Source of the DNA: a bacterium
GTDB lineage: Bacteria; CG2-30-53-67; CG2-30-70-394
Direction of reading: 5' to 3'
Assembly (NCBI GenBank): GCA_024278555.1
Contig: JAJRSX010000208.1
Coordinates: forward strand, 1-12,848
DNA length: 12,848 nucleotides
This document shows positions 2,629-10,035 of this stretch, piece after piece. The notes beneath the pieces were generated by a model. The model was not told the DNA's origin, did no database searches, and saw nothing but the letters and a program-made list of their open reading frames with translations. The translations under genes were made by a program, and so were the position numbers. The stretch's first letter is position 1. Each line of letters begins with the position of its first letter.

Positions 2629-3726
2629 TCAAGAGGCGCCGGCGACTTTGGCCAGGTAGGGCACCGCCCTTGGCGGATCCTGGTACTTGTCCTGGACCTG
2701 CTGCACCTGCTCCTGGCAGCGGAAGAAGGCGTCTACCACCTGTGCGTCGAGGTGGGTACCGGTGACCCGGCGGATCTCCGCCAGGGCCCGCTCCCGCCCC
2801 CACGCCTCCTTGTAGGGGCGCTCGGAGGTGAGGGCGTCGTAGATGTCCGCCACCGCCACGATGCGGGCGTTCAGGGGGATCTCCTCTCCCTCCAGACCGT
2901 TGGGGTAGCCGTTACCGTCCCACCACTCGTGGTGACAGAGGGCGATCTCCGCCGCCGCCTGCATGAGGGGCGACGAGTGGCCCTCGAGGATGCGGGCGCC
3001 GTGGACGGTGTGCGACTGCATGATCCGCCACTCCTCCGCGTCGAGCTTGCCGGGCTTGAGCAGGACCCGGTCGGGGATGGCGATCTTGCCCACGTCGTGC
3101 ATCGGGCTCGCCTGGAGGATGGTCGACACACCGCTGTCGTCGAGCCCCATCTCCCGGGCGATGAGCATGGCGTACTGGCTCATGCGCACCACGTGGAGAC
3201 CGGTCTCGTTGTCGCGGAACTCGGCGGCGCGCACCAGCCGGGCGATGATCTCGCGGCGGCTCTCATCGAGGCTCTTGGAGTACTCGCTCACCAGCTCCGA
3301 GAGGTGGTCGGAGGAGGAGCGGAGCATGCTCTGGTAGGTGGAGAGGCGACAAAGGTTGCGCACCCGCGCCACCAGCTCAAGCTGGTCGAAGGGCTTGTTG
3401 ACGAAGTCGGTGGCGCCGGCGGCGAGGGCCTCCAGCTTCACCTCCCGCTGGTGGATCGAGGTCATGATGATCACCGGCACCATCTCCGTCTCAGGCCTCG
3501 CCCGCACGTGGCGGAGGAAGGTGAGACCGTTCATCTCCGGCATCTCAATATCGAGGAGGATGACGTGCGGCAGGTGGTCCTCAAGCCAGGTGAGACCGTC
3601 GAGGGGGTTGGAGAAGGACTCCACCTGGTCAAAGTGGGTGTGGTGGAGAACCCGCTCGAGGAGGTCGACCACGGCGGTGGAGTCGTCCACCACCAGGATC
3701 TGGGTGTCATTGGAGAGGTTTGGCAT
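2629..3726 (-). CDS. Response regulator with HD-GYP phosphodiesterase domain
   Basis: Cytoplasmic two-domain signalling protein of 365 aa, RpfG-like. The CheY-type receiver spans about residues 8-125: acidic pair D14-D15, phospho-acceptor D59 in ILLDIEMPEMNG, T89 and K111 (NKPF). A helical linker (about 130-165) leads to the HD-GYP domain: H210-D211 with K214 (MHDVGKIAIPD), then HHEWWDGNGYPNG (265-277), which carries the full HHExxDGxGYP signature, and DIYDALTSERPYK. All metal-binding and GYP residues expected of an active enzyme are present, so hydrolysis of cyclic di-GMP is likely; some family members cut cGAMP instead. No histidine kinase is adjacent, so its activating kinase is elsewhere. 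The start is the only ATG before the receiver domain, and its ribosome-binding site is weak. The stop codon touches the inverted repeat at 2503-2628. Confidence 0.93.
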   Translation of the reverse strand: MPNLSNDTQILVVDDSTAVVDLLERVLHHTHFDQVESFSNPLDGLTWLEDHLPHVILLDIEMPEMNGLTFLRHVRARPETEMVPVIIMTSIHQREVKLEALAAGATDFVNKPFDQLELVARVRNLCRLSTYQSMLRSSSDHLSELVSEYSKSLDESRREIIARLVRAAEFRDNETGLHVVRMSQYAMLIAREMGLDDSGVSTILQASPMHDVGKIAIPDRVLLKPGKLDAEEWRIMQSHTVHGARILEGHSSPLMQAAAEIALCHHEWWDGNGYPNGLEGEEIPLNARIVAVADIYDALTSERPYKEAWGRERALAEIRRVTGTHLDAQVVDAFFRCQEQVQQVQDKYQDPPRAVPYLAKVAGAS

Positions 3727-3825
3727 CGGCAGGCAGGACCCGGTGAGAGGGGGGTTCAGGCTCCCCTACCGTATCGACGCCGTGGCGCAGGCGATTAAAT
3801 CTCCTTGTAATGACTGGGTTTTTCC

Positions 3826-4701
3826 CTATCTGCCCCCTTTTCCAGCCCCCTCCTCCGGCGGCCGGCTCGCCGCCTCCCCGCGGAGGAGACAAAGGCCGCC
3901 GGCGAGGCTGACGGCGCTCACCAGGATGAGCCAGGCAAGGGCGAAGGCGGCCGCCCCGGCCCCCCTGACGCCCACCGTCCGGAGGAGGGCGACATACCCC
4001 CACTCGCGCGGGCCGAGGCCGCCGAGGCTGATCGGGATGGTGGCCATCAACCCCACCGCCGGGGCGATCCAGAGCCACCCACCCCACCCGAGGTCGAGGC
4101 CGAGGGCGGCGGCGAGGGTCGCGTGGACCGCCACGTAGAGGAGCTGCACCGCCACCGAGGCGGTGAGGACCGCCGGGGTCACCGCGGCGAGGCGCCTCCA
4201 TTGCCGCGCCAGGATGGCCACAACGAGCAGCGCGACCGCGACCACCGCGCCGCCCCCTGGGTAGCCGACCACCGCGAGGCCGGCGGCCGCGACCACGCAC
4301 AGCCCCCACAGACCGGTGGCGCGTTCGAGAAAGACGGAGGCGACCGCGTGCCGCGACGGCCGCCACCCCTCCCCCCCCAGCCGCGCCGCCCGAAAGAGGT
4401 CGCCACCCACGAGGGAGGGGAGGAAGAGGGAGAGGAACATCGCCGCGAAGTAGAGGCGCAGGTGGCGACCCACAGGGCGGCCACAGCCGAGGGTCGCGGC
4501 GATCCAGCGCCACTTGAGGGCGCTAAGCCCCTGGGCGGCGACGAACAGTCCGAGGGCACCGGCGGCAATCGGCAGGCGGATGCGCGCCAGGAGCACGCCC
4601 ACCGGCCGCCACTCCACCTGCAGGGCGAGGAGGAGGAGCAGCAGGAGGGAGAGGGCGACGCGAAGCAGCGGGCGGCGCAGGAGCCGTCCCGCCGCGGTCA
4701 C
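3826..4701 (-). CDS. UPF0104 / flippase-like integral membrane protein
   Basis: Inner-membrane protein of about 291 aa with roughly eight hydrophobic segments, related to the lysylphosphatidylglycerol synthase transmembrane region family (LPG_synthase_TM). Recognisable landmarks are FLSLFLPSLVGGDLFRAARL, FLERATGL and IPISLGGLGPREWGYVALL. Stand-alone members lack the aminoacyl-transferase domain, and their function is mostly unproven; lipid or lipid-linked sugar translocation is the usual guess. I prefer the GTG at 4701 because its GTGA overlaps the TGA stop of the upstream propeller gene by four bases, a normal coupling arrangement. A GTG at 4719 would add six residues. The C-terminus is a short Gly/Glu/Lys tail. 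The overlap implies co-translation with the propeller protein and a shared task at the cell surface, but this is inference. Confidence 0.85.
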   Translation of the reverse strand: MTAAGRLLRRPLLRVALSLLLLLLLALQVEWRPVGVLLARIRLPIAAGALGLFVAAQGLSALKWRWIAATLGCGRPVGRHLRLYFAAMFLSLFLPSLVGGDLFRAARLGGEGWRPSRHAVASVFLERATGLWGLCVVAAAGLAVVGYPGGGAVVAVALLVVAILARQWRRLAAVTPAVLTASVAVQLLYVAVHATLAAALGLDLGWGGWLWIAPAVGLMATIPISLGGLGPREWGYVALLRTVGVRGAGAAAFALAWLILVSAVSLAGGLCLLRGEAASRPPEEGAGKGGR

Positions 4702-6080
4702 CGCGCCCCGGAGCTCCACCGGCGCAGGATCGGCAGGAGCGCCAGGGGGAGGAGCATGGGCCAGGCGGCCGCCGCGCCACCGTTCGGGACCGTCTCACAG
4801 CCACCGCCCCCGGAGCCGCCGCTGAAGCCAAAGGCGGTGAGGATGAAGAGGCCGTTGTCGTCGGTGGAGAGGAAGATGTCGCCGTAGTCCTGGTCCATCT
4901 TGGCCACGCTCACCGAGGAGGCGTTGACGATCGCCCCCACCACTCCGGGGGTCGGGGTGTCGGTCCGGTCGAGGACGAGGACGCTCCCCTGGCGGTCGCC
5001 GAGGTAGACCTTGTCGTCGTCGACAAAGACCGAGTCAAAGCCGTCGGACTTGGTGAGGTTGAGGGAGGGGTCGATCTGGAGGATCTCCCGCTGGTCGAGC
5101 TCTCCGTTACTCAGCGACTCCACCCGCTTCACCAGGAGGCCGTCCTCGAAGACGATGTAGACGAACTCGCCGTTGGCGATGAGGTCGCGGTACGGGCTCT
5201 TGTCGCCGCCGGTGAAGAGGGCGGTGAGGCAGTTGAAGAAGGAGCCACACGAGTCCTTAACCCGAACCTTCTTGGGATCACCGGCATCGACCACCGAGAG
5301 CTGCTCATCAAAACCGAGGAAGAGGCGCCCGGACTCGTAGTCGAAGGACTTGATGTCGTCGCCGGCGTCCGCGAGGTTGTCGAGAAGGACCTGGCGGGTC
5401 TGTGTCCCGGTCTGCGACGCCGCCTTGATGCGGAAGGGGAAGGTGTCGATGTCGTCGATCACCGCCACTGAGCTGGTGGTCGCCTTGGGGAGGAAGAGGT
5501 CGGTATCCACCGCAAAATCGAAGAGGACGTACATGCGACCATACTCGACGATGATCCGCCGGTACTTGATGTTCTTCACCTTCGAGAAATCGAAGCCAAA
5601 GAGGTCGACGTCGAACTTGTCCCTCACATCGTCGATCAGGGCATCGGTGCGCACGAAGCGCACCGGCAGCTCGGTCTTGGAGATGTCGAAGACAAAGAGG
5701 TCATCGCCGTCCCCGGCCATGTAGAGGTAGTCACCGCTCACATCCAGCGTGCTGAGCTCGAAATCAGCGCCGGGCTCGGAGGCGATCGGGGCGGTCGCGG
5801 CGAGGCGCGGCCGGCTCCGCTCGCGCACGTCGTAGATGAAGACACGCCAGGCGCCCGTGGGATCCACCGACGACGGCGGACCAAACCCGAGCACGTAGAG
5901 ACGGTCGCCGCGCACCACGAAGTCGGGGATCCCCTTGGTGGGATCGAACTCGCCGGCCACCGGCAGGTGGGCACGGAAGTCGCCGGCGTCGAGATCGCGG
6001 ATCGACTGGGCGGTCGCGGTCACCGGAGAGAGGAGGGCCGCCGTAGCCGCCAGAATGGCCACCAACCATGCCGATCGCAT
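4698..6080 (-). CDS. Secreted beta-propeller protein with C-terminal sorting-type tail
   Basis: Exported protein of 460 aa. ATG 6080 follows AAGGGG at eight bases and opens a signal peptide (MRSAWLVAILAATAALL, cleavage near ATA-Q at about residue 25); the ATG at 6086 would sit too close to that site. The body holds about seven blades of one pattern, a strand with D/G-x-LY/VY then D-x-x-D: DRLYVLGFG, DYLYMAGDGDDLFVFDIS, GRMYVLFDF, GRLFLGFDEQLSVVD, EFVYIVFEDGLLV, DKVYLGDRQGSVLVLD and DIFLSTDDNGLFIL. It resembles LVIVD-type propellers. The last ~40 residues are GGSGGGGCETVPNG, a hydrophobic stretch (AWPMLLPLALLPIL) and RRWSSGAR. This order (Gly run, Cys, membrane helix, basic end) recalls GlyGly-CTERM or Synergist-type CTERM sorting signals processed by an intramembrane protease. 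Ligand and function are unknown. Confidence 0.82.
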   Translation of the reverse strand: MRSAWLVAILAATAALLSPVTATAQSIRDLDAGDFRAHLPVAGEFDPTKGIPDFVVRGDRLYVLGFGPPSSVDPTGAWRVFIYDVRERSRPRLAATAPIASEPGADFELSTLDVSGDYLYMAGDGDDLFVFDISKTELPVRFVRTDALIDDVRDKFDVDLFGFDFSKVKNIKYRRIIVEYGRMYVLFDFAVDTDLFLPKATTSSVAVIDDIDTFPFRIKAASQTGTQTRQVLLDNLADAGDDIKSFDYESGRLFLGFDEQLSVVDAGDPKKVRVKDSCGSFFNCLTALFTGGDKSPYRDLIANGEFVYIVFEDGLLVKRVESLSNGELDQREILQIDPSLNLTKSDGFDSVFVDDDKVYLGDRQGSVLVLDRTDTPTPGVVGAIVNASSVSVAKMDQDYGDIFLSTDDNGLFILTAFGFSGGSGGGGCETVPNGGAAAAWPMLLPLALLPILRRWSSGAR

Positions 6081-6132
6081 CGTCATAACCCCTTGTATTT
6101 TCAGCATGTTTTTCCCCACCCCGTGAGTGATG

Positions 6133-6162
6133 ACGCTACCAGAGGGATACAAAGAGGGTCAA
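6133..6162 (-). promoter_or_regulatory. Possible promoter of the propeller gene
   Basis: On the minus strand TTGACC (6162-6157) is followed after 18 bases by TAGCGT (6138-6133). The -35 is good and the -10 weak. The position would give a leader of about 45 bases before the start at 6080. Confidence 0.3.
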
Positions 6163-6174
6163 CGGCACCCGGAC

Positions 6175-6192
6175 GGCGGGTTTACACCCGCC
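6175..6192. promoter_or_regulatory. Palindrome in the divergent promoter region
   Basis: A perfect inverted repeat, GGCGGGT-TTAC-ACCCGCC, lies in the 155-bp space between the divergent propeller and barrel genes, 43 bases before the barrel start codon. It could be an operator or a leader hairpin for the barrel gene. The arms also resemble the core of the local REP arms, so a degenerate REP remnant is an alternative. Confidence 0.45.
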
Positions 6193-6235
6193 GAAGCGGT
6201 GGGCGAGACTGCCGCGCCTTCATCCGGAGCCGCCC

Positions 6236-6931
6236 ATGCGCGCAACCTTCACCCTTTTCGCCGCCCTCCTCCTCCCTGCCGCCGCCGCTGCTCAGGGGAT
6301 CGGCAACCCGGTCTTCTCCCACTACGACTTCGTCCTCCAGGGCACCGTCGAGTACAGCTCCATCGACCGCGACCTCGACTCGGGACGCCAGGACCCCGAG
6401 TCCTCCGAGCTCACCACCACCCTCTTCAAGGGGGTCGTCGGCATCCACCCGCGCCTCGACCTCTACGTCCTCCTCGGCCAGGCGAGCCTCGACCTCTGCT
6501 CCGGCGACGCCCAGGACATCTGCGGCGAGGACGGTGAGATCAGCGCCTCCGACTTTGCCTACGGCGGCGGCGTCCGTTGGACCTTCTGGCAGGGCAAGCA
6601 CGTGGAGGCGGCGGTCGGCGGCCAGGCCCTCTGGTTCTCGGTGAACGACCGATCGGAGAACACCAGCCGCACGGTCGACTGGGTCGGCTACCACCTCTTC
6701 GCCGGCGCCAGCTTCCCCACCGTCCCCTACGCCACCCCGTACATCGGGGTCGTCTACGACATCATCGACGCCAAGCTGAAGGGGCCGAACACCATCGACC
6801 TGGAGGCGGACTCCCCGACCAGCGCCTTCTTCGGCGTCGACGTCCCGTGGGGGAACTACCTCAGCCTGTCGCTGGAGGGTCAGCTCGGCGACAACACCGG
6901 CTGGACCATCGGGGTGAACGCCCGGTACTAA
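6236..6931 (+). CDS. Small outer-membrane beta-barrel protein
   Basis: Protein of 231 aa. GGAG at 6226-6229 precedes the ATG by six bases. The signal peptide is MRATFTLFAALLLPAAAAAQ, with cleavage around residue 19. The mature part consists of amphipathic strands separated by acidic turns: YDFVLQGTVEYSSIDRDL, LTTTLFKGVVGIHPRLDLYVLLGQA, FAYGGGVRWTFWQGKHVEAAVGGQ, and a final LSLSLEGQLGDNTGWTIGV ending in ARY. The terminal aromatic residue and the size fit an 8- to 10-stranded barrel of the OmpA/OprF-like or OmpW-like type. Two Cys (LCSGDAQDIC) in one loop could form a disulfide. I do not recognise a specific family. It is transcribed away from the propeller gene, so the two may share regulation. 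Confidence 0.75.
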   Translation: MRATFTLFAALLLPAAAAAQGIGNPVFSHYDFVLQGTVEYSSIDRDLDSGRQDPESSELTTTLFKGVVGIHPRLDLYVLLGQASLDLCSGDAQDICGEDGEISASDFAYGGGVRWTFWQGKHVEAAVGGQALWFSVNDRSENTSRTVDWVGYHLFAGASFPTVPYATPYIGVVYDIIDAKLKGPNTIDLEADSPTSAFFGVDVPWGNYLSLSLEGQLGDNTGWTIGVNARY

Positions 6932-7029: not shown

Positions 7030-7113
7030 GTAGGAGGGGGTTGCACCCCCGACCCCGCCCGAAGGGCCGGCCGGCGCCGGTAGCGCCGGATCGCGGGTAC
7101 AACCCGCTCCTAC
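7030..7113. repeat. REPIN: two inverted REP arms around a palindromic spacer
   Basis: The left arm GTAGGAGGGGGTTGCACCCCC starts at 7030. The right arm ends at 7113 with CGCGGGTACAACCCGCTCCTAC, which read on the other strand begins GTAGGAGCGGGTTGTACCCG. Each arm is itself a hairpin, and the spacer contains GCCGGCCGGCGCCGG. GTAGGAGCGGG is the typical REP head of gammaproteobacteria such as Pseudomonas. REP elements are mobilised by RAYT (TnpA_REP) transposases; none is encoded in this window. Confidence 0.88.
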
Positions 7114-7118
7114 CGGGG

Positions 7119-7174
7119 TACGTCGAGGAGCCGGCTGCGCACGCAGGCCGAAGATGGCGTGCCTGACGCCGCCG
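7119..7174 (+). repeat. Diverged copy of the ~50-bp intergenic repeat
   Basis: The sequence follows the same order as 2568-2624 (TACGTCGAGGA, a G/C-rich palindromic centre, GCCGAAGATGGCGTGC, then GCCGCCG), with several substitutions in the middle. It follows the REPIN directly, and its outer end runs into the stop codon of the minus-strand ABC exporter gene (7175-7177). Confidence 0.8.
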
Positions 7175-9070: not shown

Positions 9071-9514
9071 TCACCCTCTCGCCTCGCGCTCGCGCACCGC
9101 GGCGAGGAAGGCCTCGTAGGTGGTGAGGTAGTCATCGGGGTCGTAGCGCAGCGACGCCAAGAACATGCACACGGCGCCGCCGCTGAAGTTGTTCAGAGTA
9201 CGCCAGTGGAGCGGCGGCACGTAGAGCCCCTCGTCGCTGGCGTTGAGGGTAAAGGTCGACCGCCGGGCGCCGTTGTCCACCACCACGTCGAAGGCGCCGC
9301 TGATGGCGATGATCACCTGCTCCAGGTCGCGGTGGGCGTGCTCGCCGCGCACCGTCTCCTTCACCACCTCATAGAGGTAGTAGATTCGCTCGATGGCGAA
9401 GGGAATGTGGTTGTTCCCCTCCACAAAGGTGAGGCTGCCACGGTCATCGGAGAACTTCGGCAGGTGGATGATGTGCGGGCGGGACCACTCGGGTCCGCGA
9501 TCAAACGCAGCCAT
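9071..9514 (-). CDS. FdtA/QdtA-type sugar 3,4-ketoisomerase (cupin), copy 1
   Basis: Cytoplasmic single-domain cupin of 147 aa in the WxcM-like/FdtA family. These enzymes convert dTDP-4-keto-6-deoxyglucose into the 3-keto sugar, which an aminotransferase then turns into a 3-amino sugar for O-antigens or S-layer glycans. Family marks are RGSLTFVEG (25-33), IPFAIERIYYLYEV, RGEHAHRDLEQ (56-66; H59 and H61 are the HxH pair used in catalysis) and YVPPLHWRTLNNFSGGAV. AGGAGG sits five bases before ATG 9514. It lies 62 bases downstream of a close paralogue, with about 60-65% identity by eye. Which epimer it makes (FdtA against QdtA) cannot be read from the sequence. No complete aminotransferase is present next to it. 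Confidence 0.9.
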   Translation of the reverse strand: MAAFDRGPEWSRPHIIHLPKFSDDRGSLTFVEGNNHIPFAIERIYYLYEVVKETVRGEHAHRDLEQVIIAISGAFDVVVDNGARRSTFTLNASDEGLYVPPLHWRTLNNFSGGAVCMFLASLRYDPDDYLTTYEAFLAAVREREARG

Positions 9515-9576
9515 AAGGGCCTCCTATCCGCCACAGTCCACCAGCACGGGGCCACCGTGGCAAGGGTGGCCGCGGC

Positions 9577-10035
9577 TCAGCCGTGCGGTGCGGGGGGCGG
9601 GCCGCCCCGGCGCTGCATCTCGGCGAAGAGGTCGTCGTAGGTAGGGAGGTAGTCGTCCTGGTCGTAGGGCATCGAGGCGAGGACCAGGGCGGCGGCCGCA
9701 CCGCTGAAGTTGTTCAGGGTCCCCCAGTGGAGCGGCGGCATGTACAGCCCCTCGTCGCAGGCGTTGAGGGAGAAGGTCCACTGGCGTTCACCGTCAAAGA
9801 CCACCACGTCGAAGGCGCCGTTGATGGCGATGATGAACTGCTCCAGATCGCGGTGGGCGTGCTCGCCGCGGATTGTCTGCTTCTTCACCTCGCTCAACAC
9901 AAAAATACGGGCGATGGAGAAGGGGATCTGGTTCCCCCCCTCGATGTAGGTAAGGCTGGCACCCCGGCCGCCGTGCTTCGGGAGGGAGATGATGTGGGGC
10001 TGCGACCACCTCCGGTCGCCGGGATGGGTCACCAT
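9577..10035 (-). CDS. FdtA/QdtA-type sugar 3,4-ketoisomerase (cupin), copy 2
   Basis: Protein of 152 aa, first gene of the minus-strand set that ends with the exporter. It has the same architecture as the next gene: ASLTYIEGGNQIPFSIARIF, RGEHAHRDLEQ (56-66, H59 and H61 kept) and YMPPLHWGTLNNFSG. Changes cluster at the surface: the DDRG turn near residue 25 is replaced by GRGA, and the C-terminus gains a GGPPPAPHG tail. Both copies keep the catalytic HxH, so neither looks dead. GGAG lies nine bases before ATG 10035. The tandem order suggests gene duplication followed by divergence, perhaps to a different nucleotide sugar or to a heteromer, since family members are dimers. Both last points are inference. 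Confidence 0.9.
   Translation of the reverse strand: MVTHPGDRRWSQPHIISLPKHGGRGASLTYIEGGNQIPFSIARIFVLSEVKKQTIRGEHAHRDLEQFIIAINGAFDVVVFDGERQWTFSLNACDEGLYMPPLHWGTLNNFSGAAAALVLASMPYDQDDYLPTYDDLFAEMQRRGGPPPAPHG

Follow-up and report, generated by a model that had tools for sequence, protein, structure and literature searches.

A genus-limited gene pair joins a secreted, probably beta-propeller protein with a Gly-run, Cys and Arg-Arg tail to an MprF-flippase-like membrane protein

Two described C-terminal sorting signals are told apart by a Cys: by curation, the GlyGly-CTERM signature never contains one and the MYXO-CTERM signature always does (PMC3237569). The VesB protein has a glycerophosphoethanolamine moiety attached following cleavage by rhombosortase (PMC6219818), and myxosortase is a CPBP protease whose cleavage requires the invariant Cys (PMC11980579). 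For Cys-type tails a lipid-attaching step has been proposed for which no enzyme is identified (PMC11980579). Where a genome has a single GlyGly-CTERM target, the gene next to it usually encodes the sorting enzyme (PMC3237569), and the same rule holds for JDVT-CTERM and MrtJ, whose target and protease genes are adjacent (PMC11980579). UPF0104 proteins are homologous to the flippase domain of MprF (PMC5898192, PMC11980842). In Pseudomonas, MprF is a scramblase that accepts many lipids and needs no energy source (PMC11980842), and for members of the UPF0104/MprF family a role in the movement of lipids, or of sugars linked to lipids, has been proposed (PMC5898192, PMC12713373). Literature searches turned up no paper on a pairing of a propeller protein with UPF0104.

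Such a pair, real and genus-limited, is present in an uncultured Nitrospirae-like bacterium, on the minus strand of a DNA stretch of 12,848 nucleotides that was analysed as a whole (the window). Its first gene (4698..6080) encodes a secreted, probably beta-propeller protein of 460 aa, here called the propeller, which starts with an ATG at 6080 preceded by AAGGGG about 8 nt upstream and has a signal-peptide-like N-terminus, MRSAWLVAILAATAALLSPVTATAQ (6006..6080, minus strand; hydrophobic segment at residues 6-24). The last 42 residues, FSGGSGGGGCETVPNGGAAAAWPMLLPLALLPILRRWSSGAR (4701..4826, minus strand), comprise a Gly/Ser run, a Cys, a hydrophobic stretch and Arg-Arg, the Gly-run/Cys signature being SGGSGGGGC. 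The second gene (3826..4701) encodes a UPF0104 / LPG_synthase_TM (MprF-flippase-like) membrane protein; its open reading frame has a first GTG at 4719, an alternative start, and a second at 4701, which overlaps the propeller stop codon TGA as GTGA (4698..4701). Both the overlap and the composition of the tail had been read in this way in a preliminary description of the DNA, and both were confirmed. No sigma-70-like promoter or terminator was found within 3500-6400. Downstream of the pair lies a response regulator with an HD-GYP domain (2629..3726, minus strand), which is probably separate from it, and on the other side a divergent outer-membrane beta-barrel protein (6236..6931, plus strand; PF13505, E 1e-4, with a score below the gathering score). 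The window holds many envelope genes, including those for an MsbA-like ABC transporter, two FdtA-like proteins and a heptosyltransferase-like protein. The FdtA-like genes (9071-10035) stand in tandem and are 81% identical over 277 nt, likely a duplication of a sugar-modifying gene. A dispersed intergenic repeat family with units of 48 and 87 nt recurs in the window, at 2332-2623 and 7046-7164; it includes a 58-nt inverted repeat at 2503-2623.

The sister species CG2_30_70_394 (contig MNYW01000032.1; genome 94% complete) has both genes, with 84% identity for the propeller and 71% for the UPF0104 protein, and with the GTGA overlap, the upstream GTG and the tail including its Cys (signature GGGGGGGGGC). 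There, too, the pair stands between the HD-GYP regulator, downstream, and the divergent outer-membrane protein, both of which belong to the same synteny block. A comparison of the two species shows purifying selection on the propeller body (dN 0.08, dS 0.45) and looser constraint on the tail (dN 0.19, dS 0.40); despite this, the Cys and the motif LLPLALxPILRRWS are common to both. The signal-peptide-like N-terminus evolves fast, dN being about equal to dS.

The propeller contains one LVIVD repeat (PF08309, 21.4 bits; gathering score 20.2) and no other Pfam domain above its gathering score, and its full-length sequence gave no NCBIfam match at E 1. In Foldseek comparisons its top match was BamB (E 6e-7) and the matches were mostly propellers with TM about 0.2. 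As the AlphaFold models were built on two-sequence alignments and are poor (pLDDT 41 for the propeller and 57 for the UPF0104 protein), these fold matches are supportive only; together with the repeat they make a beta-propeller fold likely. The UPF0104 partner was identified by PF03706 (LPG_synthase_TM; 87.2 bits, gathering score 33.4) and scored 21.9 bits with the TIGR00374 flippase-like domain (cut-off 43.2). Its best PDB fold match was MprF (7duw), weak at E 0.07 and obtained with the low-confidence model. It is the sole UPF0104 match found in the window's genome, as its orthologue is in that of the sister species. A sequence search of the PDB returned no meaningful relative of either protein.

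No CTERM model reached its cut-off on the window or the sister tail. With MYXO-CTERM (TIGR03901, cut-off 20) the window tail scored 18.3 bits in isolation and 16.8 in the genome scan, with GlyGly-CTERM (TIGR03501, cut-off 15.5) 14.1 and 14.2 bits, respectively, and with JDVT-CTERM (NF033191, cut-off 27) 10.1 bits, compared with 21.1 (E 2e-4) for the sister tail. The window tail has the tripartite layout with a Cys in the signature that characterizes MYXO-CTERM, and the Cys-free signature of GlyGly-CTERM is found in neither species. Because the Cys stands after the Gly run, the tail is to be placed among the Cys-type tails according to the published curation (PMC3237569). The preliminary description had called it a CTERM-type tail, and what holds of this is the Cys-type layout with near-threshold scores, not a model match at cut-off.

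Of the 114 GGGGC sites in the genome of the window about 100 were read, and a strongly hydrophobic stretch with a basic end within 45 residues follows only one of them, that of the propeller tail. No further tail of this type was found there with a tail profile, the GlyGly and MYXO models and these GGGGC sites; the other C-terminal matches shown were PEP-CTERM tails. PEP-CTERM proteins were seen at three loci in the window's genome and at three each in two genomes of its class (G001 and G004). Another genome of the class, G002, contains two unrelated proteins that share the layout of Gly run, Cys, helix and basic end. One carries delta-60 repeats and a choice-of-anchor U domain (G002:C11) and ends in GGGGGGGGGCALRQGAPAGPDLVFLLLPLLLIYLAKRRRA; the second, of a PKD/calcium-repeat type (G002:C68), ends in SSSGGGSGGGCAVSAQPDAADVLLLLLPLFALAGTRWARKRLNK. 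Both tails score below the JDVT-CTERM cut-off. They are possibly a lineage-specific sorting signal of the Cys type.

Candidates for the protease that might act on the propeller tail were also considered. The preliminary description had guessed at a rhombosortase-like enzyme, and a genuine rhombosortase is indeed encoded in the window's genome (TIGR03902, 148.8 bits; cut-off 84). With the tail at 14.1 of 15.5 bits, a divergent GlyGly-CTERM cut by this enzyme could be envisaged; by analogy with VesB the protein would then receive a glycerophosphoethanolamine-lipid anchor, for which UPF0104 would supply or redistribute the phospholipid. We consider this unlikely. The signature contains the Cys that curated GlyGly-CTERM tails never have, and the sister species has the tail but no rhombosortase above cut-off in its 94% complete genome, where the best match is a generic rhomboid of 32.8 bits. 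Likewise, the Gly-Cys tails of G002 occur with a best rhomboid match of 23 bits. Moreover, the rhombosortase gene shares an ATGA overlap with a giant gene of PKD repeats that has a GlyGly-like segment of its own, an arrangement typical of one-target systems. On these grounds, the pairing with another gene, the result in the sister and the broken Cys rule, rhombosortase was rejected as the protease of the tail. The giant gene itself (G000:C110; L091:1538-10117 and L034:1-1363) is a 2859-aa frame with PKD-type repeats and the GlyGly-CTERM-like segment GRGGSGGIGGVELLLLLAWLVWRRRLR; immediately after this segment, and still in frame, come a stretch resembling a signal peptide and a barrel of the OmpA-like kind, with a possible internal GTG start. 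Either substrate and barrel are fused here, or the start of a separate barrel gene overlaps the first gene.

A CPBP protein is the better candidate, given that the Cys-requiring myxosortase belongs to this family (PMC11980579). The window's genome yielded a single CPBP protease, with 187.6 bits for TIGR03008 and with intact EExxxR and HxxxN-type motifs. It scored 24.8 bits with MrtJ (cut-off 75) and 15.1 of 100 bits with Mrt_core, and no myxosortase of the MrtX type was found in this genome. TIGR03008 is the PEP-CTERM-associated CAAX protease type, and the PEP-CTERM proteins are the likelier clients of the enzyme.

Our preferred reading, to which we assign a probability of roughly 45%, is that of a C-terminally anchored envelope protein of the Cys type, lipidated and cleaved, which is encoded in a two-gene operon with an MprF-like translocase. 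The propeller would be exported by Sec, as its signal peptide suggests, and held in the inner membrane by the C-terminal helix and Arg-Arg. The tail would then act as a sorting signal like those of MYXO- and JDVT-CTERM: its Cys, which follows the Gly run, would receive a lipid, and an intramembrane protease, for which the CPBP protein of the TIGR03008 type is the most plausible candidate, would cut off the helix. By analogy with myxosortase, the product would be a lipid-anchored envelope or surface protein. The UPF0104 protein, presumably an MprF-like lipid translocase or scramblase, would be made in step with it, as a membrane partner or a mere operon neighbour. The anatomy of the pair, its coupling, the conservation of this coupling in two species and the candidate proteases were observed here, whereas lipidation, cleavage and any link between the propeller and UPF0104, be it physical or functional, are steps that we infer. 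A direct role of UPF0104 in the anchor is a possibility raised only by the conserved adjacency in one genus.

The Cys-type anchor is favoured by the retention of the tail and its Cys in two species at 84% identity, by the recurrence of its layout in two unrelated proteins of G002, one of them with a choice-of-anchor U domain, and by the sub-threshold JDVT (sister) and MYXO (window) scores; the operon part is favoured by the conserved GTGA overlap. Against the anchor stand the CTERM scores below cut-off and the PEP-CTERM association of the CPBP family, and the reading as a whole is weakened by the confinement of the pair to one genus. The tail would be explained nearly as well by a simple membrane anchor that is never cleaved.

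The distribution of the two genes was examined by searching 386 genomes with both proteins. The propeller family was found in two of them, those of the window and of the sister species; one further match, in G002, is restricted to the tail and C-terminal end of another protein. UPF0104 has a wide distribution, with matches in 117 of the 386 genomes at E 1e-4, and 28 loci of its best matches outside the genus were taken for comparison. Among 20 genes upstream of these close relatives that were scanned, 12 have GT2 domains (one weak), and the other eight encode a class II tRNA synthetase, an ABC permease, TPR, YfhO or hexapeptide proteins or have no assigned domain. At 23 of the 28 loci the upstream gene was resolved, and none of these genes has a tail of Gly/Cys, helix and basic end; of the other loci, L103 has a GT2-like frame downstream. 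The YfhO-type protein, of a polytopic family, ends in a helix and RRR with no Gly-Cys signature. Since no UPF0104 match accompanies the two Gly-Cys tails of G002, and since the resolved upstream neighbours of the UPF0104 relatives have no such tail, UPF0104 is no general requirement for these tails and the tails are not its usual partners. On the 386-genome searches a generic propeller/UPF0104 module was rejected, and the two-gene module put forward in the preliminary description does not hold as a general one. The neighbourhood it had pointed to is kept in the sister species, but the resolved upstream genes of close UPF0104 relatives elsewhere carry no such tail. Within the 386 genomes the pairing was seen in no more than one genus, of uncultured bacteria.

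These neighbourhoods bear on a rival explanation, namely an ordinary operon with no shared mechanism, in which a periplasmic propeller that is never cleaved, and is permanently held by a C-terminal helix on a Gly linker, is encoded next to an unrelated translocase of lipids or sugar-lipids belonging to the cell-envelope region. That close UPF0104 relatives adjoin GT2 glycosyltransferases or unrelated genes, that every CTERM score lies below cut-off and that envelope genes are numerous in the window all agree with it, and we regard it as a serious, if doubtful, possibility. Against it stand a Cys kept right after the Gly run in two species and the layout in the unrelated G002 proteins, and the conserved start/stop overlap suggests coordinated synthesis.

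The adjacency rule of one-target systems also raises the question of whether UPF0104, in the place of the sorting enzyme, serves a single tail as its dedicated anchoring factor. The propeller tail is the only one of the GGGGC-helix-basic kind found at the sites read, and the conserved gene next to it, where GlyGly-CTERM (PMC3237569) and JDVT-CTERM/MrtJ (PMC11980579) systems have their enzyme, is the sole UPF0104 match of either genome. UPF0104 is, however, not known as a protease, G002 has its two tails with no UPF0104 match, and the resolved upstream neighbours of the close relatives have no such tail, so that this is highly improbable. We give slightly more, though still little, credence to a one-target sorting system of the Cys type whose dedicated, coupled partner is an MprF-like lipid translocase rather than a protease and would deliver or redistribute the anchor lipid or hold the lipidated protein in the correct leaflet.

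If a sorting tail and a coupled lipid translocase do belong together, the pair would be a rare genetic hint at lipid handling in the attachment step. Its present value is that of a lead, from one genus and with a tail below cut-off, together with the evidence of Gly-Cys tails in a deep-branching class.

Of the known systems, the JDVT-CTERM/MrtJ pairs of beta- and gammaproteobacteria resemble the locus in having a single Gly/Cys-helix-basic target beside one conserved partner. They differ in that the tail here remains below the cut-off of 27 and the partner is UPF0104, not a CPBP protease; the genes around the target are those for UPF0104, the HD-GYP regulator and the outer-membrane protein. 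MYXO-CTERM with myxosortase MrtX shares the Cys signature, the helix and the basic end (18.3 bits for the isolated tail), whereas the present tail falls below the cut-off of 20, comes from outside the Myxococcota with no MrtX found, and is one tail, not one of dozens. GlyGly-CTERM with rhombosortase is similar in its Gly/Ser run, helix and Arg and in the occurrence of a rhombosortase in the same genome, and is set apart by the Cys in the window signature, the score below cut-off, a sister species with no above-cut-off rhombosortase and an enzyme that is paired elsewhere. Finally, the partner has PF03706 (87.2 bits) in common with the UPF0104/COG0392 flippase-like proteins (the MprF flippase domain, YbhN, the AglD C-terminus and GpgF); its close relatives mostly adjoin GT2 glycosyltransferases, whereas here it is coupled to a tail-bearing propeller.
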